Below are positions 2,160 to 50,965 of a stretch of DNA of 64,000 bases, one piece after another (position 1 is the first letter of the stretch; every line of letters begins with the position of its first letter). Source of the DNA: Bryopsis sp. KO-2023. Taxonomy: Eukaryota; Chlorophyta; Ulvophyceae; Bryopsidales; Bryopsidaceae. The notes below the pieces were generated by a model. The model worked only from the letters and a program-made list of their open reading frames with translations, had not been told where the DNA came from and searched no databases. The stretch covers positions 7,688,001-7,752,000 of the forward strand of contig BSYQ01000002.1 of the NCBI GenBank assembly GCA_030272585.1, in the 5' to 3' direction. The position numbers were made by a program, and so were the translations under genes.

Positions 2160-2575
2160 TTGATGGCTTCATGCGTGATCGAACAGGGTACAGAACAGCG
2201 GAAAAGTTATGCTATCTCCACAGATCAGGGGCATTTTTCAACATACGGGTTCTTGTCGTCATGGTATCAGTAGCAGTTCGTTTGGTCTTCGCACTCGGTG
2301 TATGAGTAGGCGACGCAGAAGAGCGTCGCGACGAGCAGAGCCGAGAGCACGAAGGTTGAAGGAGCCATAGTGTGTGAGGCAGTTCACGGAATCGAGGCCT
2401 CAAGCGCGGTACTTGTAGGAACACAAAACCGCGAACACTACAGCATGGCTCAAGGCTTTCGTGTCGCACTCGATCTGCTGTGCGGGGGCGATCTGGGTGA
2501 ATGCCAGACTGAGGCCAACACTTTGCTTGACTGTAAAGCGGATCTCGTTTCTTGGCTTGATGTTCCGGGAAAAAG
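2160..2575 (-). repeat. Duplicated first exon and promoter of the PAN-type gene
   Basis: This block matches 19260-19670 in the same orientation. The match covers the start of intron 1, exon 1 and about 200 bases upstream of the start codon. No counterpart of exons 2 and 3 is visible nearby, so only the 5' part of the gene was duplicated, or the rest was lost. Confidence 0.8.
2247..2368 (-). pseudogene. Exon-1 fragment of the secreted PAN/Apple-like protein
   Basis: The reading starts MAPSTFVLSALLVATLFCVA, nearly the same signal peptide as the intact gene at 19467. It continues YSYTECEDQTNCY and meets a TGA where the intact gene has a tryptophan codon. The 5' splice site (GTATG) is kept, but exons 2 and 3 are absent. 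It is best read as a broken partial duplicate. The promoter-side similarity could still allow transcription. Confidence 0.8.
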
Positions 2576-5464: not shown

Positions 5465-5527
<63 letters not shown>

Positions 5528-6169
5528 CTGTGTGCTGTTACTTATTACAAGGTCGTTGGGAATCAAGAATAGGAATTAGTGGGAATCGTCATATATATCT
5601 GGGTCTCTATGAGAAGCAAGAGGATGCTGCCAGCCATTATGACCGGGCCCTTGTGAGAATGCGAGGGTGGAGAGCAACAACAAACTTTCCATTTTCTGAG
5701 TATCAATCTGAGCTGGAGGAACACAAGCTCTTGGAGGAGGTATGTTAACACATGTCAGTTCAGTGTTGGGAGGACGTTCGTCAAGTGTTGGGAGGGGTAT
5801 GAAAGCAAATTGCTGTGCCTGCATTCCACATTTGTTAAGAAATAATATTGAAACCGATAATGAATCTGTTCCTCACAATTTCAGGGGGGGAAAGCCATCC
5901 AGAAACTGAGTGTACATGATTTGATGGGACCCTATGATTTCTATACTTCAAAATACCAGAGAATTAGTGACACACTTCTTAAATTCATTTTCCAGAAGCT
6001 GATGGATGATGCAGAGGAGATTGAATGTGAATCTGATCCTATTCTGAGGAAAGTATACGGATTGTGGGTAAAGAAGGGTGGACGGGATCCCCTTGAAAGG
6101 CTTATTGTACGAATACGAGAATCTGAAGAGCCTTCAAGGAACGATGAAAAGGCAGGCAGCAATGCGTGA
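3686..6169 (+). CDS. Double AP2-domain DNA-binding protein
   Basis: Seven exons give a protein of about 561 residues: 3686-3779, 3965-4359, 4453-4934, 5028-5174, 5259-5353, 5552-5739 and 5885-6169. All junctions are GT-AG and the phase is continuous. The protein starts [20 protein letters not shown]. Two AP2 domains follow a long polar N-terminal region. AP2-1 (about residues 312-372) runs from [20 protein letters not shown] through [18 protein letters not shown]2-2 (about 395-455) runs from [20 protein letters not shown] through [18 protein letters not shown] to WRATTNFPF. Both keep the WEA/WES strand and the YLG turn of the three-stranded DNA-binding sheet. The role is inferred to be a nuclear sequence-specific transcription factor. 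Each AP2 domain is split by an intron, and intron 5 contains a (TG)n run. Coding-like windows after 6270 leave open additional or alternative 3' exons. The target genes are unknown. Confidence 0.85.
5466..5527 (+). repeat. (TG)n microsatellite in AP2 intron 5
   Basis: An uninterrupted TG run of about 27 units ends in a short GCGCGCGC tract. It lies inside the intron between exons 5 and 6 of the AP2 gene, about 25 bases before the 3' splice site. It is likely length-polymorphic and Z-DNA-prone. Confidence 0.95.
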
Positions 6170-7194
6170 AGTACAGCGATTGCTATCCAGGCTTCTTTTT
6201 CTTGGATTGTATTGGATCTGTGCAAGGTGTTTGTGGAATAAGCAAATTTTTGATTATGTGATAACAATTGCAAGGTATTCCAACAAACCATGAATCGAGC
6301 GAGTGGCACACATTCTCAGACTGTCCATCTGAAATCCCCGCTTCTTTATTTGGTGAATCAAACTACGGAGGGTCTTGGGCCTGCAGGGTAACCCCCTGGA
6401 GCATTTCCACCCACGATCCCAATTGTGGTTTTTTCCGTCGCTCATCGATTGTCAAAACGCCTCAATTGTTCAAGGGCGATCTTATCATGGGTACCTCATA
6501 CGATGAGTTATTTGTGTTTTCGTGTTCTCCACCTGTGCCAAAAAATCTGGAAACTACTTTTCTTTCGAGAAATTCACTTACTATGGACCCAGCAACAGGA
6601 GGGGTGGTCGAACTCCAGGTCCTCAGTTTGCTATTGGTGCTTTCTGGTCCACAAGAGAAAGAAGGAACGAAAAAAAGATACGAGTGCAGACATGATGGCA
6701 TGTTGCAAGATGGATTTCTCTTAGAAGACATCTTTAGGGGTTCAAAAAGCTTATCAACGTTATCCTGTACTATAGAATCCTTCTTTTGGGCTGCTGAAGA
6801 CAGTCGACACCACACGAGCCAGGTCCACGGGTTTCAGTTTCACCAGAGGACTTCAGTCAGAAAATCGCTTCGTTGAGAGGGATTTATTCTGCAGAATTTT
6901 CGCTGGGACGACTGCAGCACACACAAAAAACGTTCGAAAGTGCAACCAAGACCACATACCTTCCGAAAAAAAACATCAGAGGTGTAAAAGATGTCGAGAA
7001 ACGGTTCCCAGAAATTGCGAAGGATGAAGAGAAGGAACGAGTGGATTCAAAAAAAGCAAAGTTTCCGCTCAGCAAATCGTGTTTTTCTGGTAGAACCTCC
7101 GAGCTCTTCCCAGCCCTTGATAAGGACTTCGTCTACACCACTTCGTTTCCAGCATTCTTTGATCCCCTCGCAGGAAACACTAACATTACTTCTC
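6170..7194 (+). other. Possible extra exons, unassigned
   Basis: Two windows look coding. About 6275-6388 reads VFQQTMNRASGTHSQTVHLK and ends before a GGGTAACC donor-like site. About 6565-6690 reads YGPSNRRGGRTPGPQFAIGA after a CTTTTCTTTCGAG acceptor-like site. They could be alternative 3' exons of the AP2 gene or a separate small gene. I could not join them with a continuous phase. Longer open frames at 6268-6876 and 6873-7256 are unrecognised. Confidence 0.25.
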
Positions 7195-7740
7195 CCTGTG
7201 TGGTCAGTGGGAGGGAGGGAGTTTCAAAGGAAAAAAAAGCTCTTTTCCTTTTTTAGAAGAGGAAGCTCTGCTGAGAGCTTGACCGAGCTTCTCCAGAACA
7301 GGAAAGCGTTTTCCTATCCCCCACACGACAGCTCCCCGCACTCTCACTCACCTGACTCTTTGGTGGCTTTGGTTACCACCACGCGTCAGCATCGCGAGGA
7401 CAGCGATTCGGATTGACAGCTGGTTTGGATGTGAAGACGTCTTCGAAGACGTCGGAGAGCCGCTCGACGCGCCCGCACCGCTCGAGTTTCTGGCGGTTGG
7501 GTGAGTCATCCTTGGGGGGGTACTTGAGTGCGACATCGATGCATGTCATCGTTCGCCCGCTGGTCAAGGGGATCTGCTAGAGGATTCCTGGCCACCAGGT
7601 CCCGGGTTCGAACCTTCACTCTCGAATTGTCATGCGCCAGAGAGGTCGTAGCCGCCGGTGCTGAAACCGCCGGCGGGGTTTTTGTTTTTGTTTTCGATTT
7701 TACTTTTACTTTGCTTGGGGGAATTTTCATGCATGTTGGA
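7195..7740 (+). repeat. Dispersed repeat R4, copy 2
   Basis: The mate of the 1310-1795 copy, in the opposite orientation. It begins with the block GTGGTCAGTGGGAGGGAG followed by a purine tract, and ends at CATGCATG. A TGGTCAAGGGG box-A-like motif and a GGGTTCGAACC box-B-like motif lie about 40 bases apart near 7560-7615, as expected of a tRNA-related pol III promoter. Confidence 0.6.
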
Positions 7741-8103
7741 GGAAAAAAACTGCTGTTGTTCTCGGTGCCCTTGTGTGTGTGCGTGTTTTGTTGGATCCTG
7801 GATGTTTATGGTTCTGTTATAATTTGCACCAACCCACTTGGTTTCCCAACAAAAGCGAAAAACCCCCCTGCCAGCCGATCGGCCCATTCCTCAAGATCAG
7901 TCAGACTGTGGGTGCAGATCCAACCAGAAGCCTACCAGTCACCACCCATCTACTTTCCCGACGAGCTTGGAAAAGCTGGTTTTGGCTGCACCCAACGGTC
8001 AGTCTGACTGACGTCCCTGACGTCCCTTTCGAGGGGCATTCCACATCCCCTTTGGCCACCCTGACCAGCCACGTGTGATGACATCCCTTTACCCAATCAT
8101 CAA
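7741..8103. other. No gene recognised
   Basis: Spacer between R4 and R1. An open frame crosses it without family resemblance. Its right part has no clear counterpart beside the other R1 copy. Confidence 0.35.
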
Positions 8104-10015
8104 ATTCGCACCTATTATTCCAGCCACTGTTGATTCAATGCTGGTGGATGTGAATTTCGTTTTGGAAATGTGGAAACTCAGGTAGCGGTGGCCTGAACAT
8201 TGTTTTCTAGTTCTTGACAATGGGGGGGCGGACTACAAACAAGCGAAGAGACAAAATCTGCTCGACTTCTCCATGCTACGGGCAGCAACAAGAGGAGCCC
8301 CATCTCAAAAGGACTGCAGGGAAAACTGGATGGCTGGCCAGGTCAAGTTAGTTTTCATTTACCCATCTGCTGAAAAAAATGAAAGAAAAAAAGAGAGAAA
8401 AAAGAAAAGGAGTGCCAGCAATCTTAAGAGAAAATGAAACTTTTCCTTTTGGATGGGGAAAATGAGCAAAAACAATTGCAGGAAAGCATAGCCTAAGACT
8501 CTTTTTTTGTGGGTCAGTGACCCACAAAATATCAATAGCTGGTGGTCCTACAATAGAAATTTTCTAGAATATTTTTATACTCAAAAGTGCTGAAGATGTT
8601 GCATTGGGCTGTGGACACGTATGCATCACATCGGATCGGTTTTCACCGTTATGAATGCTATGATTCAGAACAGGTAAGGGGAAATTGAAGTGAAAAAATG
8701 AGTGAAAAAAAAGATTTGTTCATATTTTGAAAAAAACAAATTATACTGGGGTTTTTTGTGGGCGCGCAGTTTCTCTCTCTCGAAATATATTTATTTGGAT
8801 TATTTTTTATTCGTAGGAATCACTTCCGCATGTTTTGGTTGACCTTTGCAACAAAACAGAGATGACTAATAAGAACTTTACAAAATAAAAAGGTAAGCCA
8901 AATGCACCAGACCGGCTGGAGTGTTTTGTGGCTACTGCATTCAATTGGTTTTAGTCAAAAACACACACATGGACAGTGATGGTTTTCTGAATTCATCCAC
9001 ATGCGTAACCCTTTTTTTTTTTATTCCCGATGTAGGCTGACATCCACAAGCCTGATGCTGCCAACCTCCCTCACACTCCTCCCCCCCCCCCTTGGGACCA
9101 AAAAAAGGGGAAAAAAAAACAAAGGAAGCTTCGGTGGTCGAATTGGTGGACTCCAGAAAAACCAAGAATGTTAAAAAAGAATGGACCATCATCCGCCTGG
9201 CAGCAAAAATGGGACTGAGAAGAAAGTTGTGAGAAATTCTCCTGCCGGGCTAAAATGCCAATGGCTACATCACACTTCAACGAAAAGGTTTAAAAAAAAA
9301 ACATGCTTTGCTGAGCGTTGCAATCACCCTGGGCGTACCTCCACAATGAATAGAAAGAAGATCAAAGTATTTTTTTTTTTCAAGTTAAGTGCATCAGTTC
9401 CTGCTGTCGATGCCTTTTAATTTAGAGAAGGAACTTCAATTTTGTCAACCCAAGGTTAGGCTGGCCAATCGATTTGTTTGGGGCTGCTCTCCTGGATTTT
9501 CCGGAATTTTCACCTGGGCTTAAGACAGCTGTAGGTAATGATGTGGACTATTTAGGTTCAGTGAAAAGAATATCTTAAACACTACTGAGGGCAGTTTAAG
9601 GTTTCAATTGTGAGGCTGACGAAAAAAGATCCACACCCTTCTGAGTATCACTTTTTCTTTTTCTTTCTTTCTTTTTTTTTGGTTTCTTTTTTCACACCCT
9701 TTCGTTCAACGCCGCCACTGACCTTGGGGTGGATCTCCCCAATGAATCAAAAGTTGGGTCAGAACAGCAGCAGCAAATTTGATTTATAGAAAGGGACACC
9801 AAAAAGAGAACATATATTTTTCAGTGTCTTTTGTATGTCGTTTTTTTTTTATTTATTTTTTTTGAGTGGGGGGGAACGTACTCCTCCACTGAGTCTTGTT
9901 AATAATAGTTTGATAAAATGACCTGAAGTAGGCATGTTTCAGGTCCCTAGGGGCAGATCTTTTCAGGAATGAGTGTTTTCTTCTTTAAAAGAACAGATGA
10001 GGCCTCAAGTGAACA
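8104..10015 (+). repeat. Dispersed repeat R1, copy a
   Basis: A block of about 1.9 kb that recurs in the same orientation at 46711-48615 and, in shortened inverted form, at about 21100-22250. Landmarks: an ATTCCAGCCACTGTTGAT start, a GCTGGTGGATGTGAATTTCG segment, a 23-base palindrome around 8506-8528 (arms TTTGTGGGTCA), a GAATTGGTGGACTCC segment near 9138, and a GATGAGGCCT end. Copies differ by many substitutions and indels, so the family is not recent. No terminal repeats or long open frame are obvious. Confidence 0.75.
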
Positions 10016-11084
10016 GCCATGGATCGAAATAATGCTGGAATAGTCTGTCCTGGTTAGAGAAGAGTTTTTTTTTCTTGATATCATTGATGTTTTTGCATTT
10101 TATCTGATTTTTCTTGCGTTTTCGATAGTTTTAGACTTTAGCTCCGATGGACCTGGGCATGTTGAAAATGTATTCAGGATCAAGGTTCTCGGGTATGAAA
10201 TCGAATAAACCTGGCTGAACTTTGTATGATTCAGCATATTTGCTTACAATACATATTTTGGGAGATCAGTACGAGAGGGAAGAGAGTCCTTTTTTTTTGG
10301 TGGCAGCAGAACCAAGACAGAAATTGAAGGCTGATTTTTTCTGGCCCTTAAAGAAATAACAAAAAATACACAGTTGTCTTTTTTTTTTTTTTTTGGCTTC
10401 ATTTAGATAGATGTATATAGGAATCTATCAGAACCCCCTGGCGGCTTGGGCCATCTTGTTGCAATACGTTTTGCACACAATTGATTTTAGTTTACCTAAT
10501 TCCATACAATAATCTTAGTGCTGCAATATCAATCATTCTCCATAGTGCCTTAGCTGCTTATTGGTTGAGGGAAAATGCAAATTGATAAGAAATAGTAGGC
10601 ATAGTAGGTATTATGTTTTGCAAGCATTTATAAATACCTAAATACCTAAAATTCAAGTAAGATTTTCTCAGGAATCATATAATTATATGATTCCTGAGAA
10701 AATCTTACTTGAATTTTATTCATTTCATGCAACATTTTCTTATCAGAGCAGTATAATCCAGATGGAGTTTTTTTTTGCCCCTCACTTCTTGGGATAGTTT
10801 TGTTTGATCAATGATTTACTTGATTCACTGTTTCTGTCTTCTGTCTTCTGAAGCTCTCCTGAAACGTCTTCTTTCTATGAACCTTACCAATTGTTTTCAT
10901 TTTTCTCTTTTCCTACGATTCTCCTGAGTTGATGGACTGAAAACAGAAACCCTCTTTTGAAATTTTTGTTCGGGAGACCATAGATTCCTGAATTGTAACA
11001 TTTACATCCACAGAACAAAAGCACCACAAGAAAAAATTTCGAAGCCGAAACACACAAAATTGTTGTTGAAGTTCAGACATGTCT
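10016..11084. other. T-rich spacer with a long perfect palindrome
   Basis: Many T homopolymers and no convincing exon. Its first part is weakly similar to the R2 start beside the other R1 copy. A 72-base perfect palindrome lies at 10647-10718. The last part should hold the 3' UTR of the F-box gene on the minus strand. Confidence 0.45.
10647..10718. repeat. Perfect 72-base palindrome
   Basis: Two 36-base arms meet with no spacer between 10682 and 10683. The left arm runs TAAAATTCAAG to CATATAA and the right arm is its exact reverse complement. Such a sequence can extrude a cruciform or, if transcribed, form a long hairpin. A partial secondary symmetry (TAGGTATT and AATACCTA) precedes it. Confidence 0.95.
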
Positions 11085-12158
11085 TTATCGAAGGACTCCG
11101 AAATCGAATTGAAGAACTTCCCCCTTTGTCGTGACTAGTATAAGCTTGTCGACTGTCAAGTGCACTCCTACCACATCACCACCCTCATAGTGGATGGTGC
11201 GGAGACAACGATCTTCATCAATATCCCACACCTCTACGGTCCCTTCTGACACTGCGTGTGCAAACTTGTTGTGGTTGATTCCAAAACTTGGTAAAAAATT
11301 ATCATTTGGATCAGTTTGGACATAAAAGACTATCAAACATTCTTCGCGATCTCGTCGCAGTACCTTGTATTCAAAATCGACTGAACTGCAAGCTATGAAT
11401 CTTTCATTAACCGCCAGATCTACTACCCAATCGTCAAAAACCTCTAGCTTTGCTACACAAGAAGCAGTTTCCAAGCTCCAAACGGATATTTCACCTCCAT
11501 TTACCCCAAAATAGAACAAACCCTCGAAGTACGTGAAACTTTTTATTTCTTCGTCCCCAATCTGAAAGACTTGAGATTCACTCCAATCCTCTTTGTTCCA
11601 AAAGCCAAGGAACCCATGAGAACCACAAACGGCGACATGTTCGTCAATATCAGCGACATCAAGAACTTTCTGAGGGATTTTGAACGACGCTTTTTTGGTT
11701 AGTTCTGGAGCATTCCATACTCGAACAACGCCTGACTCTTTGTCACCGGAAATCAACATTCCATCCACAAAACGCAGAACATCATTCCAATCTACATAAT
11801 CTTTGGAAAAGATACCATCATTTGTAAGATCCATTATCGCTATTAAGCGGGGAAATAGATTTGTTCCAATGAGTCGATGTCCCAACACACGTCTCATGCC
11901 AACTGCAATCATATTACCTTGTTCGGATGATTGACTGATTGGGAGGGGGTCTGAGATGTTAAAGTTTGAACGCTTCGGTTCGATTTCACCCGTTCTCCAC
12001 GCCCTCTCTAACTTCAGGTCATGGTTCTCGCAGATCAAATCTCTCCAGACTTTTGCCACTGAACACCAACATGCCAATTGCTTGATCGGAAGAAGGTCAA
12101 AAATATGACACAGAACCCCATCCGGCAGATCCCAGTTGGCGCTCACCAGATCGCTCAT
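11085..12158 (-). CDS. F-box/WD40-like protein, subfamily A (left copy)
   Basis: An intronless gene of about 357 residues from the ATG at 12158 (MSDLVSANWDLP). An upstream in-frame ATG at 12188 exists, but the MSD start matches its relatives (MSDYVPVEWDLP). The F-box lies at about residues 8-48: WDLPDGVLCHIFDLLPIKQL, a cysteine/serine-rich helix, then VWRDL. The rest forms degenerate WD40-like blades ending in VVRVWN, LGFWNKEDW, ISVWSLE, VEVWDID and VLQFDF. F-box proteins of this layout bind SKP1 of an SCF ubiquitin ligase and hold the substrate with the beta-propeller; substrate specificity cannot be read. The blades are weak, and only some have a clear W-D ending. Its close relative is at 49.8-51.0 kb. 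Confidence 0.88.
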   Translation of the reverse strand: MSDLVSANWDLPDGVLCHIFDLLPIKQLACWCSVAKVWRDLICENHDLKLERAWRTGEIEPKRSNFNISDPLPISQSSEQGNMIAVGMRRVLGHRLIGTNLFPRLIAIMDLTNDGIFSKDYVDWNDVLRFVDGMLISGDKESGVVRVWNAPELTKKASFKIPQKVLDVADIDEHVAVCGSHGFLGFWNKEDWSESQVFQIGDEEIKSFTYFEGLFYFGVNGGEISVWSLETASCVAKLEVFDDWVVDLAVNERFIACSSVDFEYKVLRRDREECLIVFYVQTDPNDNFLPSFGINHNKFAHAVSEGTVEVWDIDEDRCLRTIHYEGGDVVGVHLTVDKLILVTTKGEVLQFDFGVLR

Positions 12159-13694
12159 CCCTGAATCGCTAAACAAAACAAACCTCATACAAGTGAACGG
12201 AAGAGAGACAGTTCCCGTAAAAGAATGTCACTTTTTTTCATTTCGAAAGAGTCCGTGTGTAACAGCTGCGAGGGAAAGGGGGTGCCGCGAACGCATCCCC
12301 GCCCAGAACCACAACACTTTGGCTCCCTTGGATGGCAACTGATCGATATACAACCGGTGCGAAACTTTTCAGCACAAGCGAACGAGGAAAGAAAAAGTAC
12401 CACTACTGGCATTCTTTCGAAAAGGGCTTTCTCGATTTCGGTTGCCCTAACCCTAACGCGCCTGTGCAAAAGCAACTCCTTCACACACGAGATAACTCTC
12501 GAAAGGCACAACCTCTGCGGAGAATTCTTGATTTCCTGTGACTTTGCCTTTCGACCACAGGGGATCGGCGGCTGGCTCGTTTCGGAACGTTTGGACACGT
12601 CCCTCGCCTGCTGCCTGAGCTCTTTGAGGGGGATTGGGCACGCGATTGAGATTGAGATGCGAGACGCGCATCTGCCACGTTTGATTCGTCACACTCACTT
12701 TTTGGGTCCTTTTCCAAAAGCGCGGGAAAAAGTGCCGTCGGACGATCACAGAGACCGCTCAATTTACTTGGTTTTACAACTTCAATTTTCAATTTTTTCG
12801 AGAGTGAACAAGGGAGAGACAGAAACAGCAATGTCTTTACTCCCTGAAAATGATCTATCCTTCACCAGAACGTACAATATTTTATTAGTGTTTATAGCAG
12901 CATGGTGGAGGTTTTTTACCAGAATTATTTTTTTTTTTTCTTTTTTGGCATCACCCCTAACCTATCGGGGAAGGGATTTCCTCTTTTTTTTTTCCTTTCA
13001 GCAATTCCCCCACCCCTTTCTCATCAAACCCCACCCGCCCGAATTGCCCTCTCAAATATCTTTACATAACACTTTTGACATATTAATGTTTCTTTGATTT
13101 GAAGTTTCTGCTCGCATGTTCTGAAAAGGTTCTATCCAATTTTCTCTTTTTTTCCTTGCCCCCATTTTGAAGCGTTCCAAACTTCACGAAGCTTGACCAC
13201 AAAAAAATCCTTTGCTTTTTTTTCCCCCTTGTGCATCCAGTTATCCTGTTCGAAGTTTGGCTCCACCTGCTGTTCTCGCAATTTTCCGGGACTGGACATC
13301 GTTCTCCGGCTCAGCAGCTGCTGGGTCCAGATTTCTCTTTTTCTGAATCTTGGTCAGACCGTGCACAGACACTTTGTACTTTTTGCTGGAAGCATATTTT
13401 CTCGCAGAATAGAACTTGACGAGGCCGCCTGGAAAAAAACAGAATGGAAAAAGGGAACGTTTTTAAGTACTTGAATTCACCAATTCAATTCAATTCAAGT
13501 GAGCCAATCAACAACGTCGGAATTTTGATCAACTTCCCAGTCCTATCAACAACCTTCTGTTGTTCAAACGAGATCCCACACAATTTATTCAACAAACATA
13601 CAAAATACATATAATACATTACGTATCTTTCATTTACTCCTCCCCCCCCCCCCTCCTCAAAAAAACAAACCATAAGAACAGAAACTACGATTTC
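12159..13694. other. Upstream region of F-box gene A and 3' side of the cyclin gene
   Basis: This holds the F-box promoter and, at its right, sequence downstream of the cyclin stop codon. A 290-codon open frame from an ATG at 12225 runs to 13097 on the plus strand, divergent from the F-box gene. It is long for chance but has low-complexity Phe-rich parts and no family match. A short CCCTAACCCTAAC telomere-like motif lies near 12447. Confidence 0.35.
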
Positions 13695-16529
13695 TCACGC
13701 ACCTTGAGTTACGCAGGTCGGGTTCTTGGCGAGTTTGTTCAATTCCTGCGCAATGGGAAGGACCGCTTTGAACGAATGCTTGGAGTGACCCCACAGGGCA
13801 TCCGGATAGAGGTCAGGTTCGCACATTTCGATCCTGGCAGCAAGCACGATGGCCGCCGCCAGTTTTGATGGGCGAACCGATTGCAGTTGCCGGCAATACA
13901 GCACGAGTTCGGTCAGATACATACAGTACGATGTCACTTCATGCGCATCCAAGTAGCCACCCGCCCTGCATTTAGCAAACAGAAATTGGGTTCTTCGGCC
14001 GGGAAATATTGGAAAAGCATGGACTGAGCCCAGTCAAGGAACAAAAATGTGGCTATAATATTCACATCCTATGCAACAAGAATAACGGTAAAAACAGAAC
14101 TAAATCAGACTGTCATGCAGGTCATATCATTGGTTTATACATCGAAGGACTCTGTCGGGAAATCTTGACATTGTGATGCTGTCACCAGTGCAAAGAGCAA
14201 TTCTGGTTTTGACCACTTACTGGACGTATCGCAGAACGAAAATATACACGGTGGGGAGACCCGAAAAGCCCTCCAATGCTGTGAACAGTGTCCTTTCTTG
14301 CTCCAGCATTGCGTCTCGAGTTTTGATGCTTTTCTTGCTGGTGCTGATGTTCATGCGATCGATGATGTCTTTCGTGCGTGGAGCACTCATTTCCTCATAT
14401 TTACCAGCCATGAATAGGCACGTTGCGGCGAGCTGAAAAAAGAAAAAAGAAAACGATGCTTGTATAGCAGCATGCAAACTTTTTATGGGGGAAAATAAGA
14501 GGTAATTTTTCCTTTTTTTCCTAGGTTGAGGGGGGGGTCAACGAACAAAAGAAGTGAATCCGCCCCACACAGAACTGAGGAGCAACCCAATTCATGCACA
14601 ATTAACACTGTTACTTGTTATAATTGGAGTGGAGAGGCCTCACCACTTGGAATTCAGTTATAGCTATTTTCTTCACCGCCAGGTAACGATCCAAAAAACT
14701 AATCGACAGGAACAGCGTTTCCATCTTCAACTGGTTAATTCCAGACACCACAACACAACATCATTTCCTTCCCTCCCTACAATTCAGCGGGCAGGCAGCC
14801 GGTCGATCCAAAGAATTCGTTTCGACTTCAGCAGCCCCAAAGCACACACACTGTGAAAACTTAAGAAAACGAAACCTATCCCGAAACGGCCCTCCAACAA
14901 TCAACACAGGAAACACGAGCCAAAAATCTATGGCAGAGAATCGGAAAGAAAACAGATTTGGCACTTAATTTGCTCACCCTCATGTGGCTGTGGGTCTTGA
15001 CCATCCAATCTACAATATCGATCCTGCCGCGAGCGACTTCCTCATCCTACAGCAAACCCATTTCTAATATAGTACCCACATGACAGACACTGTGAAAACA
15101 TGAAAGAAAAACCTGTGACCTGAACTCAACGCTCTTTCTAAGCAGCCACACAGATGCAAGGCAAAATAGTATTCACCAATGAACAATAATTTCCTGATCA
15201 ACAATCACCATCACTAATTGAGAAAGAGACTGGCTGTGATGTTAGGAACCGCAGTTGACTCATCCCGTAGCCAGCGAATACAATAACCAGTGACGACCAT
15301 CATCATCATCAGTACAATTCATTGAAGGGGAGCAAGAAAGAGACTGCCCAGATGGCAAAAGAAAGTAAATTAGAGGAAAGAGTTCATTCACATGGTAGCT
15401 AGAAACAGCCATGGAGCACCCCCCCCCCCCCCCCAAAAAAAAAAAACACCAGTACTAAGTCACACTTCACACTTCAGCTGAGGTGACTAGTAGACCAGGA
15501 AAAGGAACAAAGACGTCACCCACCTGATGCTCGAGGTAATTTGCAGGCACAACGAACATACGCTCGCGCCGCTGATAGTTATCGAATATGTGTTTTGCGT
15601 AGAAGGAGCACAACAACTGGTTGTCCTTGTGCATGGAATCTATGTCAGGCGCGTCCGGGCGATTATCTTTCATTTCCAAAGTCTCCTCCTCTTCGATCGG
15701 CTCCAGCTTGTCTCCGGGCCTTTGCTTTCGACTGTGACCTCTCTCAGCGTTGGTTAGAGGAAGGAGCCCTCTGGCCAGCTCCGACTCAACGGGATTTTCG
15801 GTGGAGGAGGGTTCTCGGGCGGCTGGTTTCGCATTCTGAGATTCGAGTTTCGTAGCCGCGACCACCTCCGTGGCGGGATTTTTTCGAGTGATGGGGCTGG
15901 AGAGGGAGTATATTCTCAGCAAGGCCGCATTCTCCCTGCCAACACTGCCGACACTGCCGACATTGGCTTGGTTCTTCGCTGGGATTATGGCCGAGGGCCT
16001 CTTACGCTTCTGTCGATCCAAAAACACGCTCTGCGTTCAGGAACACACCGGAATACCCTAGCATTTCGGAAAATTAGCAAGAGCCTAGAGCCTGAAGAGG
16101 GAAGGATCAACGCTGTTCCGCCGCAGGGGGAAACTATTTTCGAAAAGGCTGCTTGTTTTGGGAAAGCAAGGATGAGAACGACGTGGCGGTAATCGACGCA
16201 GTCGAACGGGATTTGACTGGCGACAAACTCACCCCTTTCTGAGAGCCTTCCCCGCTACCAATTGCCTTCTCGCCACGAGGTCTGGGAGGATAAAGAGAAA
16301 CGATGAGAATGGGATAGCTGGCAACACTTCGGGCGAGCCTCTACATGCCCAAACTCCGAGCAAAAACCCCCGCTCGCTCCCTAGGGGGCCACTGAGGAGC
16401 GACAAACGAAGCAAGAACGACAGAAACAGGTTTGGATTTCTCGCTCGCGTACCCTTCAGGTCGCTGTTGGTTTTCTTGCAACTTCGGGACCGCCACGTCC
16501 AACCCGATAGGTTTGGGGTCTTCGCTCAT
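13695..16529 (-). CDS. Mitotic (A/B-type) cyclin
   Basis: Seven exons on the minus strand give 423 residues: 16453-16529, 16233-16281, 15524-16030, 14978-15046, 14644-14730, 14221-14432 and 13695-13965. All junctions are GT-AG with continuous phase. The N-terminus (about 170 residues) is basic and acidic in patches and contains an RGLLPLTN destruction-box-like stretch near residue 125. The cyclin-N box runs through GRIDIVDWMVKTHSHMR, LKMETLFLSISFLDRYLA and VLAATCLFMAGKYEEMSAP, matching the conserved MRxILVDWL, LDRxLS and ASKYEE motifs. The cyclin-C fold follows (DAHEVTSYCMYLTELVL, SKLAAAIVLAARI). The protein is expected to activate a CDK at mitotic entry and be degraded through APC/C. The invariant Arg-Met position is altered: ID-I-V-D-W replaces R-I-L-V-D-W. 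Assignment to A or B type is not secure. Confidence 0.9.
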
Positions 16530-23635: not shown

Positions 23636-24679
23636 ATGAGCGATTATGTTCCGGTCGAATGGGACTTGCCCGGGGAGCTTCTGGTCGATATTCTTCGAAG
23701 GATTCCTGCTATATCGCTTGCGAGATGCTCTTGTGTGACCACAGCTTGGCGAGAAGTTACAAATCAGCAATCGTCCTTTAAAAGGAAAATCGATTTGGAG
23801 CGTGCATGGTTGCATGAACCGATAGAGCCCGTTATTCACAATGACGAAAATTATTTTCCTACATTTTGTTGTGCCAAGATGAAACATTTGATTGCCTTGC
23901 GTGGTTACGAAAGGTTGAAGGTGTTTGACTTCCATCGAAGAGAATTTGTTTTTGAATCTGAGGAGATTCACGATCTGATTGGTCTTTCTTTCATGGATGG
24001 GATGCTTGTGACCGGGGCTGAAAATGGGCACTTGAGTGGATGGGATATATCAACGTGGAGAAAGCTTTTCCACGTTCGAATTTTCGATTCAGCAATTTGG
24101 TCTATAGCCGACCTTGGCGACAACGTGGCCATTGGGGGTGAACTTGGGCGTCTTCAAATTTGGAAAAAAGGAGTGTGGGAGCTGGTTGGATCTCTTCAAG
24201 GTCATAGACGGGATGTGAATTGCCTCTTGCCCCAACCGCGCAACCTCTTGATCAGTGGGTCATGCGACGAGACTATACGAATATGGAACTTGGTTGATAA
24301 TGCTTGCGTTGGAGTGATTCGTGGACAAAAACTCGGAGTATCATCCATGAGTGTTTTTGATGGACTCATCTTTTGTGGAGGATATGATGGTAATATTTGC
24401 TCGTGGGAATGCGAAAGCGGTGAGCACGTGCAAACCTTTCGAGGTCACACCAATCGTGTGAACTCTGTCGTTGTCAAAGAAGGTCGGATGTTCACAGGGG
24501 CTGACGATGGTACGATAAAAATATGGGATGTTATAAAAGGCAAATGTGTGCGGACCCTAGATTGTTGGTACAATAGGGAGCAAGAAGCGATAGAAGGTAT
24601 ATGGGTTGATGATGAAAACTTGGTGGCCGTTGGTGGTCTTGGGGAGATTTTGGAGTGGGATTTTTCCAAGGGCCTGTGA
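23636..24679 (+). CDS. F-box/WD40 protein, subfamily B (left copy)
   Basis: An intronless gene of 347 residues. The start ATG sits in a near-ideal GCCACCATGA context. The F-box is at about residues 8-48: VEWDLPGELLVDILRRIPA, then ARCSCVTTAWREV. About six or seven WD40 blades follow, several well formed: SLQGHRRDVNCLLPQPRN to ETIRIWNL, NICSWECESG, TFRGHTNRVNSVVVKEGR to GTIKIWDV, and a final ILEWDF. The expected role is an SCF ubiquitin-ligase substrate receptor: the F-box binds SKP1 and the propeller binds the target. Its closest relative is the gene at 36291-37331, with which it shares the MSDYVPVEWDLP start and the LERAWLHEPIEP linker. The lack of introns, unlike its neighbours, suggests an origin by retroposition before the duplications, but that is inference. 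Confidence 0.93.
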   Translation: MSDYVPVEWDLPGELLVDILRRIPAISLARCSCVTTAWREVTNQQSSFKRKIDLERAWLHEPIEPVIHNDENYFPTFCCAKMKHLIALRGYERLKVFDFHRREFVFESEEIHDLIGLSFMDGMLVTGAENGHLSGWDISTWRKLFHVRIFDSAIWSIADLGDNVAIGGELGRLQIWKKGVWELVGSLQGHRRDVNCLLPQPRNLLISGSCDETIRIWNLVDNACVGVIRGQKLGVSSMSVFDGLIFCGGYDGNICSWECESGEHVQTFRGHTNRVNSVVVKEGRMFTGADDGTIKIWDVIKGKCVRTLDCWYNREQEAIEGIWVDDENLVAVGGLGEILEWDFSKGL

Positions 24680-28138: not shown

Positions 28139-28289
28139 CACTACGAGAACAGCCAGGCTATACGATACGTTTTTTGTATCGTATACGGTACAATCTGTAT
28201 CGCACTCGACGCAAAGTATATCGTACGATACAAAACGTACCGTATAAACTGGGTCAACCGCACGTTTTTATACGATACGTTTTGTGTAT

Positions 28290-28475
28290 GGTATGAGAGC
28301 TGAAACGCAACGTACGATGTTTCTGAAGAAACAACGTATGTCGGTTGAAATGTATCGTACGATGTTTCTGGAAAAACAACGTATGTTGGCTAGACTGTAT
28401 CGTACGATGTTTTGAGAGAAATATCGCACATTGGCTGGAATGTAGCGTACGCTGTTTTGTGGGAAACGTCGATAT
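28290..28475. repeat. About four tandem units of about 45 bases
   Basis: Units follow the pattern TGTATCGTACGATGTTTCTG, then AAAACAACGTATGTTGGCT. Because the period is divisible by three, both strands read as 15-residue repeats, but this looks like a by-product and not a protein. It is the left subterminal array of the transposon. Confidence 0.8.
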
Positions 28476-28669
28476 CGCGATATCACTGTGCGATATCGCA
28501 GTGGGTGGAGTCATGTCGTACACTTTTTACATGGAAACATGTGATAATATCCAGATTCAATGATATCCAGGACTCGAACCTGGTTGGACTGCCACCTGGC
28601 ATATCATCTGTACAGTCTGGTTTTTTTTTCAAATACTCTGGAACTCACACGAAAAAAGATGCACTGCCC

Positions 28670-29986
28670 CCTAAGACTTCACATGCATTTGCCTGAGCCC
28701 AGTCAAGAAGTGCTGCCTTGTCTTGTGACTCCTCTTCAATTTTGATCGTTAGCTTTCTACATGCAGGCAGCATTGCCTCCCCGTATTCACTGGAAGTTGT
28801 GATGGCACAGATGGCTCTTGCTCTCCTCCAGTCCACTTCCTTAGAAGGGAACAGGGCAGGGTCTGGGAAAAAGCCAATACCATCCAACAACAACATGCTT
28901 AATAACATGCTTTACCTTGACCTCCAGAGTCCCTTCGACATCAGAGTTGCCGGATATCCACCTGAGAGCTATCCCCCCCACACGCACACACTGGCACAAA
29001 ATTGTTTGATCAACTGTTGCATTAGCCTCGCCACACCACTCAGCAAAATAGTGTCTCCACCACGGTGAGGATCCATAATGACGTTGACTGCCAAACAAAG
29101 AAAGGAAAATACAACTATAAGGTTCACAGGAAAAGGGCATATGCCGCCAACACAACCGACCCAGTTTTTGTTGCATTGTGTCAAGCACACGCCTTTCTCT
29201 GCCTCACTCCTTTTGTTTCGCAGATATCTGCGATGCCTGCTTCCCTTGTTTTCCCTTTTATCCAAACCTCAGCAAACCTCTCCTCGAATTCTTGACTACC
29301 CAACACCTTCACCCACCCACAAAAAAAAAGGATGCTCCTCATTCCTTGTGTCAGGGTGCTGATGGCTCAACATAATTCAAACAAGCAAATCAAAACGAAA
29401 AGATCACCCAGGAACTCTTAAACAACCCTTCCCAGATTTTGAACTATGCGGAAAACATCTGTGCACTGTGTAGATTTGCCTAATTGGGGCAGAAGTTTGG
29501 GAATCTCGAAATTAACTAATTCAGCAAGAATAAGCATCAATGCGATGGATCACTCTTTTGCAACAGAAGGAAAAACGAGAGGACGCCCCACCTTGCTGTC
29601 CAGCTTCCACAATACGGCGGACTATCCGAGTCACTGGGAAACAAAATATATTTCCTTCGCCAAGTCCTAACCTCCACTTCGCAAAAATCCTCTCTATCCA
29701 TCAGCAGCAAACTCATGAAAAGTACTGGGACAATCTGGCTTCCTTGCTCAGCTTGGTGGCCTACCTATACATCCAACAAGTTTTCGATCTCCTGGTGGAG
29801 TTTATCCCTAATTGAATTAATACAGTTACCAACCATCATAACCCCACAAAGGGCACTGGAGACAAAACAGTCATCACTTTTCAAAGCACAGCAATTATCG
29901 CCAACCCTGACCTGGGACCTGGGATTTCGCAGTTTCTTGACGAAACAAACCCAGCAAGGCAACCCATCAAGGCAACCCACCAGCAC
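28670..29986 (-). pseudogene. Unidentified gene fragments inside the CACTA-type element
   Basis: Several minus-strand stretches look coding: VRVGDNCCALKSDDCFVSSA (about 29770-29910), GEANATVDQTILCQCVRVGG then WISGNSDVEGTLEVK (about 28917-29060), and FPSKEVDWRRARAICAITTS then LTIKIEEESQDKAALLDWAQ (about 28680-28862). A good intron (GTAAAG to TTTTTCCCAG) separates the last two, but the frames do not join cleanly across it. I do not recognise the protein. It may be a captured and decayed host gene. Confidence 0.3.
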
Positions 29987-30435
29987 TGGGAAATTCGTAC
30001 AGGAGCGACTTAAACCGGGAAAGACAGAACACGGACGGGACCCTCGCGTCCCCTAGCTGTCACGTTTCGGCTCAGGGGACGTTTTTTTACTTCCCAACGT
30101 CAAACTTACAGAAAAAACAATGGAGACCCCAACCTGGAGAGGCGGTACCGCACAGCAAGGGTTGGCGAACTTCGGAAAGGACTTTCATTTTTCCTTTGCT
30201 ACCGCAGGCCCGTCATTCGTAGTTCACGTTTTTCGCTTGCCGCCCTGTTGGTTTCTCTCCCGCTTGGTTCATAGTCTCGACAGCAGCGGCAAGGAAAATG
30301 GTTCGGAAAATTACGGCGCAGCGATGTTACGATGAAAAATATAACATCAATCATTTCCCTCAATCATCACATCCACCACCACACCAGTGTTTCCTCGACG
30401 AGGAGTGTGGGGGAGACTGGGACGAGCGACACGAA

Positions 30436-30490
30436 AAGCGGTGGAGTTGGTCCACGATACTCAGAGGGTTCGACTCCCTCGCGCTTTCCT
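30436..30490 (+). other. tRNA-like remnant lacking an anticodon arm
   Basis: AAAGCGG at the 5' side nearly pairs with GCGCTTT at the 3' side. Between them lie a small D-arm-like hairpin (TGGA/TCCA) and a perfect T arm (GAGGGTTCGACTCCCTC) with box B. The whole is about 53 bases, too short for a normal tRNA. It lies within the CACTA-type element. Confidence 0.3.
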
Positions 30491-30877
30491 ATCTTCTCAG
30501 CACCCGGCCCCAAAAGACGATACGAATGGGTTGGGGATACCGCAGTGGGGTCTTTACCGCACTGTGCGTGACATTTACAAGAGGCGCGGTATCCCCCACT
30601 CAAAAAGATTGGCAAAGAAGGCAACGGCTCTGTGGCTTGGACACCTTGTGCGTGCGATGTTTTTTATCGTACGATACAGAATCAGCCGAAAACAAAGGAA
30701 TTTGTATCGTACGATAAGATATTTGTATCGCACCAACCGACTGTTCCCGTGGTTCATTTCGTACCATACAACTGCCGCTAGTTCTGTTTATCGTACGATA
30801 CATTCGGACCAAAAATCCCCAATCTGTATCGTACGATATAATATTTTGTATCGTATAGCCGGGTTGTTCTCGTAGTG

Positions 30878-36290: not shown

Positions 36291-37331
36291 TCATAACCCT
36301 TGAGAAAAATCCCACTCCCAAATCTCCCCATTACCACGAACGGCGATCAACTTTTCATCATCGACCCATAACACATTCATCCTTGGATGGATGTTTTCGT
36401 CCGATTGTGAACAATCAAAACTCTTCACACACTCCCCCTTCGTTGTATCCCATATTTTCATCGTTCTATCATATGATCCAGTGAACATCCGACCTTCTTT
36501 AACAACGATCGAGGTGATACTATCTGTGTGACCTCGAAAAGTTTGCACATGCTGACCGCTTTCCAATTCCCACGAGCGAATATTACCATCACACGCTCCA
36601 CAAAAAATGAGCCCATCAGAAACATCCAAGGACATCGCTCCCTTTTTTTGTCCCCCAATCACTCTAAGGCAGGCATTATCACCTAAGTTCCATATTCGAA
36701 TAGTCTCATCATCAGACCCACTGATCAAAAGATTGCTTGAATGGGGCAAGAGACAAGTAACACTTTTCATGTGACCTTGAAGGGATTCGATCCGCTCCCA
36801 TACCCCTTTTTTCCAAATTTCAAGATCCCCCCGGCTACTCCCAACCGCCACGTCGTCGCCAAGATCCGCAATCGATAAGACACTGCAGCCAAAAATTGAT
36901 ACGCAAAAAAGCTTTCTCCAAGTGGATATATCCCATCCACTCAAAACACCTCTGAGACCCCCGGTCACAAGTATCCCATCCAAAAAAAAGACTAAACCCC
37001 CAGCCATTCTCCTGAAAACGAATTGTCTCCGATCGAGATCAAACACCTTGACCCCGTCGTAACCACCCAAGGCAATCAGATCCTTCACCTTGGTACAAGA
37101 ATCTATTGGAAAATCATTTTCGTCGTTGTGAATGATGGGCTCTATTGGTTCATGCAACCACGCACGCTCCAAGCCGATTTTCTTTTTTAAGAACGATTCT
37201 TTTCTGGTAACTTCTCGCCAAGATGTTGCGACACAGGAGCATCCAGCAAGTGATACAGCAGGAACTCTTCCAAGAATGTTGACCAGTATATCCCTGGGCA
37301 AGTCCCATTCGACAGGAACATAGTCGCTCAT
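36291..37331 (-). CDS. F-box/WD40 protein, subfamily B (right copy)
   Basis: An intronless gene of 346 residues from the ATG at 37331 (MSDYVPVEWDLPRDILVNIL). The frame stays open 14 codons upstream but without an ATG. The F-box occupies about residues 8-48 and the WD40 propeller the rest: SLQGHMKSVTCLLPHSSN to ETIRIWNL, NIRSWELESG, TFRGHTDSITSIVVKEGR to RTMKIWDT, and a closing IWEWDF. It is clearly paralogous to 23636-24679 and diverged at many residues while keeping blade motifs, so both are probably under selection. The role is inferred to be an SCF ubiquitin-ligase receptor. About 100 bases upstream of its start the 8-kb LTR-like element interrupts its ancestral promoter, which continues at 45409. 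Expression of this copy may therefore be changed. Confidence 0.92.
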   Translation of the reverse strand: MSDYVPVEWDLPRDILVNILGRVPAVSLAGCSCVATSWREVTRKESFLKKKIGLERAWLHEPIEPIIHNDENDFPIDSCTKVKDLIALGGYDGVKVFDLDRRQFVFRRMAGGLVFFLDGILVTGGLRGVLSGWDISTWRKLFCVSIFGCSVLSIADLGDDVAVGSSRGDLEIWKKGVWERIESLQGHMKSVTCLLPHSSNLLISGSDDETIRIWNLGDNACLRVIGGQKKGAMSLDVSDGLIFCGACDGNIRSWELESGQHVQTFRGHTDSITSIVVKEGRMFTGSYDRTMKIWDTTKGECVKSFDCSQSDENIHPRMNVLWVDDEKLIAVRGNGEIWEWDFSQGL

Positions 37332-37431: not shown

Positions 37432-38972
37432 TGTGACGGGGCTAGAAAGAACATGGCAGATGTACTGCCACGAAATGTCACAATTATTCCGATGTTAATT
37501 CGGATGAACGGAACTCACCAACTCACACTGATAAACAGTCGCGTTACGCACTGCTCTGTGTGAGACCTGGTGGTTCGCACGTTGGGTTCAACTCCCGACG
37601 AGGTCGATGACGTAGGAAAAGTTGTATATCGGTGCGTTGGACGATATCGAATAGCTGGCACGCCAACCCGTGGCTAGCGCAGAGTACTAGGAGTCATACT
37701 GCCGGCCCTGTCACTCTGTGATATCCGAGGTATGACTTCTACGAAAAGTGCGGCTGGGAAAACGAGGAGCCAACGAAAACACGATAGAAAACAACGCATC
37801 GAATACAACCCACTACGAAACACGATCTTTTAGGTGATCTAGACAGCGTTTAGTCGAGTCGCTAAGCGACTCTCGCTGTGACGCCGAACTCGCAGCCAAC
37901 ACATGTGCGTTGGCACTCGAACTGGCTGCGAGTATAAAAATAGCGGTAGTTTTCTATTTAGGGACTTCCGACTTCGGGTTCTTACCTCGTATACCTCTCG
38001 CCTTGGATATCTATTTAAAGAGTGGACTTCTTTTCGTGACGGACTTAAGGAAGCTAGCTACTTACCTTAAACGGGAATCCCGAACGGATGAGGTACTTCT
38101 GGCCACGGATATGATTACCTAAGGCTATAGTGGTATACTTTTCAAAGTGGGATACACCATCCCCTCTCTTTCTGTAAAAATATTTCTCTGCAAAAGTGTT
38201 TGTGTGATCCTTTTGATCTCAGAGGAAATTTCTGTTGAATTTCCTCTATATTCTGAGATTTCTGAAGTTAGATTAAGTGTTTCTGAAAGTTCTGAAGTTA
38301 GATTAAGTGTTTCTGAAAGTTCTGAAGTTAGATTAAGTATCTCTGAAAGTGCAGTAGAATTTCTGGAAGTACTAGAGTAAAATAGGGTGTTTTCTGAAGT
38401 ATTATAAGTCTGGAAGTAAAAGGGATAAGGGTGCTGTCCCTCCCTTAGGAGTTTTTCCACTCAGAGGAGCTGCCCTCTCCTCTGAGTGTCTCCTTGTGTT
38501 TAGTTTCTCCACTCAGAGGAGCTGCCCTCTCCTCTGAGTGTTTTCTTGTGTTTAGTTTCTCCCTTCTCCAGCTCAGTTTTCAGAGTCTCCTTAGGACATG
38601 GTCTCTTAGCGACCACCCTCCGGGAAACTCCACTTTCTGTCTCGGTCGCAGGAGCAAGTCCCTCTAGCGGGTGTCTCCTTTGACTTCGACTCGTCTTACT
38701 TTCAGGTGCCTGGTCTTAGGCCTTTCGTAGTTAAGGGGATTCGAGACTGTGACTCTCGGATTGCAAGGATGTTAGTGCGACTGGTCTTAGCCGACTTCTT
38801 GGGTGACGATAGTTTCAGTGCGTTGCAGCTTAGATACCGAGTTTTTGAAATGACGTTAAAGGATGGCGCAGTCCGACTTTGTTACCGTAGACAGACTCTG
38901 CAGTAGTTCGGTGCGACTCAATTCGCGATTGCAGCGCGAATGTAAGTTAGTAGTTGCGCCGAGTGCGCTTTT
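37432..38972 (+). repeat. Left long terminal repeat
   Basis: It contains a TATAAAAA box at 37933-37940, three 30-base tandem units at 38261-38350, and two copies of a 12-base-pair hairpin (38458-38488 and 38510-38540). The TATA position would put a transcript start near 37960. A GGGTTCAACTCCC box-B-like motif lies near 37587. Confidence 0.8.
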
Positions 38973-43853: not shown

Positions 43854-45403
43854 TGTGACGGGGCTAGAAAGAACATGGCAGATGTACTGCCACGAAATGT
43901 CACAATTATTCCGATGTTAATTCGGATGAACGGAACTCACCAACTCACACTGATAAACAGTCGCGTTACGCACTGCTCTGTGTGAGACCTGGTGGTTCGC
44001 ACGTTGGGTTCAACTCCCGACGAGGTCGATGACGTAGGAAAAGTTGTATATCGGTGCGTTGGACGATATCGAATAGCTGGCACGCCAACCCGTGGCTAGC
44101 GCAGAGTACTAGGAGTCATACTGCCGGCCCTGTCACTCTGTGATATCCGAGGTATGACTTCTACGAAAAGTGCGGCTGGGAAAACGAGGAGCCAACGAAA
44201 ACACGATAGAAAACAACGCATCGAATACAACCCACTACGAAACACGATCTTTTAGGTGATCTAGACAGCGTTTAGTCGAGTCGCTAAGCGACTCTCGCTG
44301 TGACGCCGAACTCGCAGCCAACACATGTGCGTTGGCACTCGAACTGGCTGCGAGTATAAAAATAGCGGTAGTTTTCTATTTAGGGACTTCCGACTTCGGG
44401 TTCTTACCTCGTATACCTCTCGCCTTGGATATCTATTTAAAGAGTGGACTTCTTTTCGTGACGGACTTAAGGAAGCTAGCTACTTACCTTAAACGGGAAT
44501 CCCGAACGGATGAGGTACTTCTGGCCACGGATATGATTACCTAAGGCTATAGTGGTATACTTTTCAAAGTGGGATACACCATCCCCTCTCTTTCTGTAAA
44601 AATATTTCTCTGCAAAAGTGTTTGTGTGATCCTTTTGATCTCAGAGGAAATTTCTGTTGAATTTCCTCTATATTCTGAGATTTCTGAAGTTAGATTAAGT
44701 GTTTCTGAAAGTTCTGAAGTTAGATTAAGTGTTTCTGAAAGTTCTGAAGTTAGATTAAGTATCTCTGAAAGTGCAGTAGAATTTCTGGAAGTACTAGAGT
44801 AAAATAGGGTGTTTTCTGAAGTATTATAAGTCTGGAAGTAAAAGGGATAAGGGTGCTGTCCCTCCCTTAGGAGTTTTTCCACAGAGGAGCTGCCCTCTCC
44901 TCTGAGTGTCTCCTTGTGTTTAGTTTCTCCACTCAGAGGAGCTGCCCTCTCCTCTGAGTGTTTTCTTGTGTTTAGTTTCTCCCTTCTCCAGCTCAGTTTT
45001 CAGAGTCTCCTTAGGACATGGTCTCTTAGCGACCACCCTCCGGGGAACTCCACTTTCTGTCTCGGTCGCAGGAGCAAGTCCCTCTAGCGGGTGTCTCCTT
45101 TGACTTCGACTCGTCTTACTTTCAGGTGCCTGGTCTTAGGCCTTTCGTAGTTAGGGGGATTCGAGACTGTGACTCTCGGATTGCAAGGATGTTAGTGCGA
45201 CTGGTCTTAGCCGACTTCTTGGGTGACGATAGTTTCAGTGCGTTGCAGCTTAGATACCGAGTTTTTGAAATGACGTTAAAGGATGGCGCAGTCCGACTTT
45301 GTTACTGTAGACAGACTCTGCAGTAGTTCGGTGCGACTCAATTCGCGATTGCAGCGCGAATGTAAGTTAGTAGTTGCGCCGAGTGCGCTTTTGGATCGTC
45401 ACA
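43854..45403 (+). repeat. Right long terminal repeat
   Basis: Nearly identical to the left repeat, with the same TATA box (about 44355-44362), 30-base tandem units and hairpins. It ends GGATCGTCACA directly before the CGCCT target duplication. Confidence 0.8.
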
Positions 45404-49810: not shown

Positions 49811-50965
49811 GCATGGGCAATTTGGTCAGCAACATCTTGGGCGATTTGGTCAACAGCATCCTGGGCAAATTGGTCAGTAGCATCTTTGGAAGGGCCCGCC
49901 CCTTCCACCGTGGAATTGAAATGGGACTTACCGGAGGGGCTTCTGTGTCAGATCTTCGACCTTCTTCCAATCAAGCAATTGGCACTGTGCTGTTCAGTGT
50001 CAAGAAGTTGGAGGACTTTGATCAGTGAGAACCATGATCTCAAGTTGGAGAAAGCATGGAGAACGGGTGAAATCACACCAAAGCGTTTAGACTTCAACTT
50101 GCCAGATGAATTGACAGCTTATCGATCAGCTAAACACGGTGACATGATTGCAGTTGCAACGCTAGACCTCTCTTCCGGGGGTGTTCTTGGGATATTCATC
50201 ATGGATCTTAGAAATGATGACATCTTTGAGAGACCTGACGTTTGTTGGAATGGTGTTTTGCGTTTCGTGGATGAAATGCTGGTTTCTGGTGACGAAGAGT
50301 CAGGCGTGGTTCGAGTATGGGACGTTCCAAAATTGACGGAAAAAGCATTGCGCAAGATTCCTCAGAAAGTTGTTGATGTGGCTGATGTTGGTAAACATGT
50401 TGCCGTTTGTGGTTGTCATGGGTACCTTGTCTTGTGGAAGAAAGAGGATTGGAGTGAATCTCAAGTCCTTCAGATTGGGGACAAACAAATAGAAAGTTTC
50501 ACGTACTTCGAGGGTTTGTTCTATTTCGGGCTTCATGGAGGTGAAATATCCGTTTGGAGCTTGGAAAATGGTTCTTGTGTAACGAGCTGTAACACGAGGA
50601 TACAGGGGTCTGACGATTGGGTAGAAGATCTTGTGGTCAATGAAAGAGTCATAGCTTTTAGCTCAATCGATGGTGAATTTAAGATATTGCGACGAGAAGG
50701 TGAAGAATGTTTGCAAGAGTTTTATTTCTTTAAGCGTGCTCAGGTTGATCATTATGTGCCACGTTTTGGGATCAGCCGCAACAGATTTGCACATGAAGTG
50801 TCAGAAGGGATGGTGCAGGTGTGGGATGTTGACGAAGATCGTTGCCACCGAACCATCTACTTTGAGGGTGGTGATCTGGAAGGAGTGTACTTAACGGTTG
50901 ACAAGCTTATATTAGTCAAGGAAACGGGGGAAGTTCTTCAATTCGATTTTGGACTACTTCGATAA
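49811..50965 (+). CDS. F-box/WD40-like protein, subfamily A (right copy); 5' end uncertain
   Basis: The exon probably begins at 49811 after a good acceptor (TTGGTTCATCCCCAG) and gives 384 residues to the stop at 50965. The F-box starts at about residue 38: WDLPEGLLCQIFDLLPIKQL, then SVSRSWRTLISENHDLKLEK. WD40-like blades follow: VVRVWDV, LVLWKKEDW, ISVWSLENG, VQVWDVDEDR and a final LQFDFGLLR. It is paralogous to 11085-12158 throughout, with the same LKLExAWRTGEI linker. No in-frame ATG precedes the F-box; an ATG at 49813 is in another frame. So either an upstream exon supplies the start, or this copy has lost it. Three 24-base tandem repeats sit just before the F-box. The role is inferred to be an SCF substrate receptor. 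Confidence 0.82.
   Translation, partial: AWAIWSATSWAIWSTASWANWSVASLEGPAPSTVELKWDLPEGLLCQIFDLLPIKQLALCCSVSRSWRTLISENHDLKLEKAWRTGEITPKRLDFNLPDELTAYRSAKHGDMIAVATLDLSSGGVLGIFIMDLRNDDIFERPDVCWNGVLRFVDEMLVSGDEESGVVRVWDVPKLTEKALRKIPQKVVDVADVGKHVAVCGCHGYLVLWKKEDWSESQVLQIGDKQIESFTYFEGLFYFGLHGGEISVWSLENGSCVTSCNTRIQGSDDWVEDLVVNERVIAFSSIDGEFKILRREGEECLQEFYFFKRAQVDHYVPRFGISRNRFAHEVSEGMVQVWDVDEDRCHRTIYFEGGDLEGVYLTVDKLILVKETGEVLQFDFGLLR
49815..49886 (+). repeat. Three 24-base tandem repeats before the F-box
   Basis: Units start GGGCAATTTGGTCAGCAACA, GGGCGATTTGGTCAACAGCA and GGGCAAATTGGTCAGTAGCA. In the F-box frame they read as Trp-rich octads (AIWSATSW). In the ATG frame they read as GNLVSNIL, GDLVNSIL, GKLVSSIF. 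Subfamily A left copy has no such repeat. Confidence 0.9.

Follow-up and report, generated by a model that had tools for sequence, protein, structure and literature searches.

A CACTA-ended element with subterminal palindromes

The analysed window, a 64,000-nucleotide stretch of the Bryopsis sp. KO-2023 assembly (C2:7688001-7752000), carries a CACTA-ended element, hereafter the window copy of family A, the parts of which are compiled in Table 1. Both terminal inverted repeats (TIRs) begin with CACTA, and the 30-base inverted ends proposed in a first-pass annotation of this DNA were recovered in full, with the two repeats being 93% complementary. Seven TATCGTACGATA sites (five exact and two with one mismatch) were counted in the element, compared with 0.03 expected in shuffled sequences. 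The annotation was likewise right about four perfect palindromes at the right end and one at the left, but had placed the latter within a 45-bp tandem array; this perfect copy (28219) lies outside the array, which contains variants only.

Table 1 Features of the window copy of family A (positions within the window)
Feature	Position	Strand	Remarks
Family A element, window copy	28139..30877	+	2739 bp; longest ATG-started ORF 139 aa
Left terminal inverted repeat CACTACGAGAACAGCCAGGCTATACGATAC	28139..28168	+	
Two half-sites in inverted orientation, TACGATAcgttttttgTATCGTA	28161..28183	.	invariant across 12 aligned left ends
Exact palindrome TATCGTACGATA	28219..28230	.	left position 81; shared position in most other left-end copies
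45-bp tandem array, 3.5 copies	28299..28457	+	degenerate palindromes GTATCGTACGATG and GTAGCGTACGCTG inside
One-mismatch palindrome within 45-bp array	28353..28364	.	
One-mismatch palindrome within 45-bp array	28398..28409	.	
tRNA-3'-half-like conserved block with GGTTCGAGTCC word	28559..28606	-	just interior to left array
Exact palindrome TATCGTACGATA	30665..30676	.	right position 213
Exact palindrome TATCGTACGATA	30705..30716	.	right position 173
Imperfect palindrome TTTCGTACCATA, two mismatches	30757..30768	.	right position 121; mostly TATCGTACCATA in other copies
Exact palindrome TATCGTACGATA	30789..30800	.	right position 89
Exact palindrome TATCGTACGATA	30827..30838	.	right position 51
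Right terminal inverted repeat	30848..30877	-	93% complementary to left repeat

The block next to the left array resembles a tRNA 3' half: it has an outer stem, a T-arm-like hairpin and the B-box-like word GGTTCGAGTCC. All 16 genome matches to this block fell within family A copies (88-100% identity). It folded mildly better than shuffled sequences (z -1.6), and the best fold varied between copies. A tRNA-Sec match of Rfam at 30420-30488 stayed below the gathering score. Hits in the arrays to three Rfam miRNA families scored far lower than the gathering thresholds and were taken as palindrome artefacts.

Elsewhere in the window, two direct repeats of 1.54 kb (37432-38972 and 43854-45392; 99.7% identical, 6.4 kb from start to start) may be the long terminal repeats of an element that inserted recently. 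Four ORFs (11085-12188, 23636-24679, 36291-37331 and 50144-50965) form two pairs of oppositely oriented, diverged paralogues that read, by eye, like F-box/WD-repeat proteins.

Genomic distribution and recent movement of family A

The genome (91.1 Mb in 28 contigs) was examined using pattern searches, BLAST searches (with counts that are lower bounds) and flanking sequences. By our grouping, family A comprises at least 20 loci, ten of them on C2, three on C4 and one each on C5, C6, C7, C9, C13, C14 and C16; some of these are truncated, and smaller fragments exist in addition. All 20 exact TIR matches obtained are ends of family A copies. With up to two mismatches, 41 TIR matches were obtained versus 17 for a reversed control. 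Exact TATCGTACGATA occurs at 60 sites genome-wide versus three for the reversed control pattern, and each of the 50 matches listed out of these 60 lies inside a family A copy. Similarly, 74 of the 79 genome matches to the 12-mer ATCGTACGATAC are inside family A, the five outside being near the control level of three. CACTA ends together with palindromes, sought elsewhere in the genome as the annotation had suggested, were found at other loci with both ends present.

Identical 3-bp flanks, the target duplication characteristic of CACTA elements, surround eight of the 11 copies in which both tips are readable (CAT, CAG, GCA, CCT, AAA, GTT, TTC and AGA). Assuming equally likely bases, the chance of at least eight matches in 11 is 5.6e-13. 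One more copy, C2:8108198, is missing its left tip and was left out of this count. The right tip of the CCT-flanked copy is degraded, and the AGA-flanked copy is split by about 29.9 kb: at C5:6694982-6724864 an insert of this size separates outer tips that still share the duplication. Flanks differ at the 224-bp C14 copy, at C2:8222043 and at the window copy, where the left flank reads TGG and the right flank AGA. The target duplication is indeed missing from the window copy, as had been annotated; the suggestion that family A might on this account be unusual was not supported, because the absence is confined to a mosaic-looking copy and two others of the 11.

Judged from windowed identities rather than a formal recombination test, the window copy appears to be a mosaic in which at least three lineages are represented. 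Over roughly its first 320 positions it is mostly 95-100% identical to C2:8222043 and C2:8108198, and most of the interior is 89-98% identical to the C4:2726144 lineage, falling locally to 75-85%. The C4:1324910 lineage is the nearer one at positions 1901-2000 (91%) and 2501-2600 (97%), and positions 2601-2700 reach at most 80% identity to any compared copy. Matching flanks look to have been lost or never shared, and ectopic recombination between copies may explain why they differ.

Two further copies, C4:1324910 and C13:2878634, are 99.9% identical across 2,973 bp. They carry different duplications (CAG and AAA, respectively), and their 450-bp flanks do not match each other. Nearly identical copies at unrelated sites with different duplications indicate recent movement of family A.

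The palindromes consist of paired TACGATA units and are conserved

Subterminal arrays of a short word in both orientations are present in family A, the array unit being the 7-mer TACGATA. TATCGTACGATA is composed of two such units in inverted order that overlap by 2 bp and leave no loop, and the TIR tip holds TACGAGA, one mismatch from the unit. When units with up to one mismatch are counted, 17 lie in the left 330 bp of the window copy and 14 in its right 230 bp; first-order resampled sequence gave means of 2.7 and 2.1, respectively, and an interior stretch of the copy contained none. Four other lineages had 15 to 19 units on the left and 8 to 13 on the right, and their interiors held 0 or 1.

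The palindrome at left position 81 was observed in nearly all copies that retain the left end. It is absent from C2:1078801 and from C2:1767095 together with the near-identical copy of the latter on C4, has one mismatch in C14 and is shifted by two bases in C2:8108198, which has an altered tip. Similarly, the palindromes at right positions 51 and 89 occur in nearly all copies retaining the right end: the truncated C16 copy has the site at 51 only, an 8-bp shift is seen in C2:8222043, and the site at 89 carries one mismatch in the 16-kb copy. The sites at right 173 and 213 occur only in lineages with homologous sequence at these positions, and are absent from four copies (the 16-kb copy, C2:8108198, C2:8222043 and C14).

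Aligned lineage representatives, excluding the first 30 columns (TIR), were used to compare variability of palindrome columns with that of the remaining columns. Palindromes were defined as the exact word in at least one lineage, a definition mildly biased toward conserved sites, and with this definition variable columns made up 1/24 of the palindrome columns versus 38/76 elsewhere in the right 130 bp of five lineages (p = 2e-5). For the right 230 bp of three lineages, the values were 0/48 versus 37/151 (p = 1e-5), and for the left 115 bp of five lineages 0/12 versus 20/73 (p = 0.03). The site at right position 121 (TATCGTACCATA) is conserved though it is an imperfect palindrome, indicating that full symmetry is not required for conservation. 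At the level of sequence comparison, these data support an interpretation of the family A palindromes as conserved, binding-site-like units.

Search for a transposase

Among ATG-started ORFs of 90 aa or longer in seven family A copies, the maximum length was 197 aa, and some of these ORFs recur among close copies. Nine of them, comprising the four forward-strand ORFs of the window copy (all that it has) and five others, were compared with Pfam and yielded nothing above the cut-off; for eight there was no match even at E up to 1, and the ninth scored far below the cut-off. A transposase with family A ends was not found in the copies examined. The sole Pfam tnp2 locus found in the genome (C12:548569-549374) has none of the listed family A TIR or palindrome matches nearby. 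Two other transposase loci were inspected: C2:5811333 has no convincing ends within the surrounding 8.5 kb, and C9:2231319 showed no link to family A among repeats within 3.3 kb. A solo end at C17:134593 has about its first 24 bases in common with family A, with no palindromes across the next 300 bases.

Three long copies were considered as autonomous candidates and rejected, with no transposase for family A found in any of them. The 10.2-kb copy (C6:1375532-1385703) is a family A copy with an inserted element, and the 8.4-kb copy (C2:8222043-8230393) contains two insertions. The insert in the former has split direct repeats and an ORF of the phage-integrase type (PF00589, E 1.3e-6), and is similar to Ngaro/DIRS-type retroelements. 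The third candidate, of 16.1 kb (C2:8446591-8462709), has family A ends, a GTT duplication and transposase-like multi-exon ORFs at about 3018-7171. It seemed to be the longer relative with a CACTA transposase that the annotation had named as possible support, but both its length and its exons are due to a nested second element, family B, and no such relative was found. As family A moved recently and no gene was found, a transposase probably acted recently in trans.

A second CACT-ended family nested in the 16.1-kb copy

Family B is a 13.4-kb CACT-ended element at C2:8447791-8461212 (positions 1498-14919 in the sequence of the 16.1-kb copy). It is bounded by CACTCGCGTAACGG and CACTCACGTTACGA with CTC at both sides, and relatives without this stretch read through the empty site as CCCCTCTGTAGCACC. 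The right ends of family B are multicopy; ten other genomic pieces start exactly at boundary base 14919, and four others at most 8 bases outside. The CTC duplication, the empty site and the further copies that share this end point show that family B is separate from family A.

Both ends of family B contain arrays of TACCCA words (53 and 63), including inverted pairs TGGGTA-N-TACCCA, of which 14 are on the right (N = G in eight and C in six) and two on the left. Inverted pairing is therefore not unique to family A. The family B exons resemble two other ORF loci. Neither the family B exons, for which the best hint was an E of 0.04 to a C2H2 zinc finger, nor the family B-like ORFs matched Pfam above the cut-off, and a profile comparison of the latter with the tnp2 ORF gave nothing; for this reason we call the putative family B protein 'CACTA-like' from its ends, its duplication and motifs judged by eye. 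In sum, family B is like family A in having CACT ends, a 3-bp duplication and array words in both orientations including inverted pairs, and differs from it in its tips and word, in a one-base spacer in place of the overlap, and in its multi-exon transposase-like ORFs.

Proposed mechanism and alternative explanations

We consider it very probable that family A is a non-autonomous CACTA-type transposon that is mobilised in trans, with its subterminal arrays serving as a binding platform. Movement would be by cut-and-paste, as we infer, when a transposase made elsewhere acts on the family A ends. On the platform, TACGATA would be bound singly in either orientation or fused in inverted order as TATCGTACGATA, the latter probably by a protein dimer. 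Because the TIR tip holds the one-mismatch unit TACGAGA, tip and array may share one binding protein.

The palindromes might instead be sites of a host DNA-binding protein, either a transcription or a chromatin factor, with the transposase using the TIR tips alone. Such a role would suit a palindrome, which is a classical dimer site, and arrays to which no transposon protein is linked, and the conserved block with the GGTTCGAGTCC word inside the left array would be another host-like signal carried by the element. We nevertheless regard it as unlikely, since ATCGTACGATAC outside family A is near the control level, so that the host hardly uses this word elsewhere, and since the array unit reappears in the TIR tip with one mismatch. 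Even less credit is given to the arrays being inert repeats that arose by replication slippage and were inherited by descent. While the left 45-bp units are indeed a tandem array of the slippage type and many family A copies are closely related, the right palindromes are unequally spaced (38, 32, 52 and 40 bp) and separated by dissimilar spacers, yet they are far less variable than these spacers, which makes this explanation very improbable.

Family B could be the source of the transposase for family A, as it is the only element found joined to family A that has transposase-like exons, and it shares CACT ends, a 3-bp duplication and inverted word pairs. However, the ends have little in common past CACT (CACTCGCGTAACGG in family B versus CACTACGAGAACAG in family A), the array words differ (TACCCA versus TACGATA), and the searched family B exon occurs at a single place in the genome, with two distant relatives at 32% and 26% identity. 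A supply of transposase by family B is accordingly quite improbable.

A broader and rather doubtful speculation is that CACTA-like elements of this lineage have replaced single subterminal words by paired inverted half-sites to which dimers would bind, a design common to both families (TATCGTACGATA and TGGGTA-N-TACCCA), with the half-site also serving as TIR tip in family A and with a transposase lineage that Pfam does not recognise. Family A offers a recently mobile CACTA-like family with a clean, conserved and countable array of symmetric sites, which eases testing how CACTA proteins read subterminal repeats with respect to monomer or dimer binding, orientation and spacing. Together, families A and B illustrate that a nested element can mimic a full-length autonomous relative.

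Comparison with known CACTA systems

The family A tip CACTACGAGAAC resembles the En/Spm tip CACTACAAGAAAA. Separately, an inverted pair of CACTACAAGAAAA words, identical to the En/Spm tip, was observed 4.8 kb apart at C1:3140363-3145131 and may mark a further CACTA element. The annotation of the window element as a CACTA-ended transposon is supported by the ends and the 3-bp duplications of its family. We propose family A as a new non-autonomous CACTA-like family, ordinary in kind but unusual in its symmetric-site layout, its superfamily being assigned by ends and duplications and not by a transposase. Among the open papers listed, none was found in which a CACTA subterminal motif is itself an overlapping palindrome, and the two papers listed with TATCGTACGATA both concern DNA nanomaterials by title and abstract.

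As described in two reports (PMC8195511, PMC8978399), plant CACTA/En-Spm elements have CACTA tips, a 3-bp duplication, abundant non-autonomous copies and subterminal arrays in which short words are repeated both directly and inverted. Family A resembles them in all four respects. In contrast, its 7-mer is fused to a self-complementary 12-mer at most right-end sites, and no tnp2 is linked to it. The palindromic 12-mers noted in the annotation are real, but their foreignness to CACTA elements was overstated, as the unit is a 7-mer that occurs in either orientation and inverted subterminal repeats are described for soybean Tgmt* (PMC2613891). There, Tgmt* has a 3-bp duplication, and 14 palindromes can form from its inverted subterminal repeats. 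Tgmt* and Tgm1 share with family A inverted subterminal repeats capable of forming palindromes or stem-loops. While the Tgmt*/Tgm1 motif is 17-20 bp long and its pairs form stem-loops, the family A units overlap by 2 bp and are loopless. Similarly, Jozin CACTA elements of Chenopodium (PMC8978399) have ends starting with CACTA and 19 to 23 copies per element of a 12-bp subterminal motif, a repetition also seen in family A. The Jozin motif, for example TATTTGTAACTA, is not self-complementary, whereas the 12-mer of family A is.
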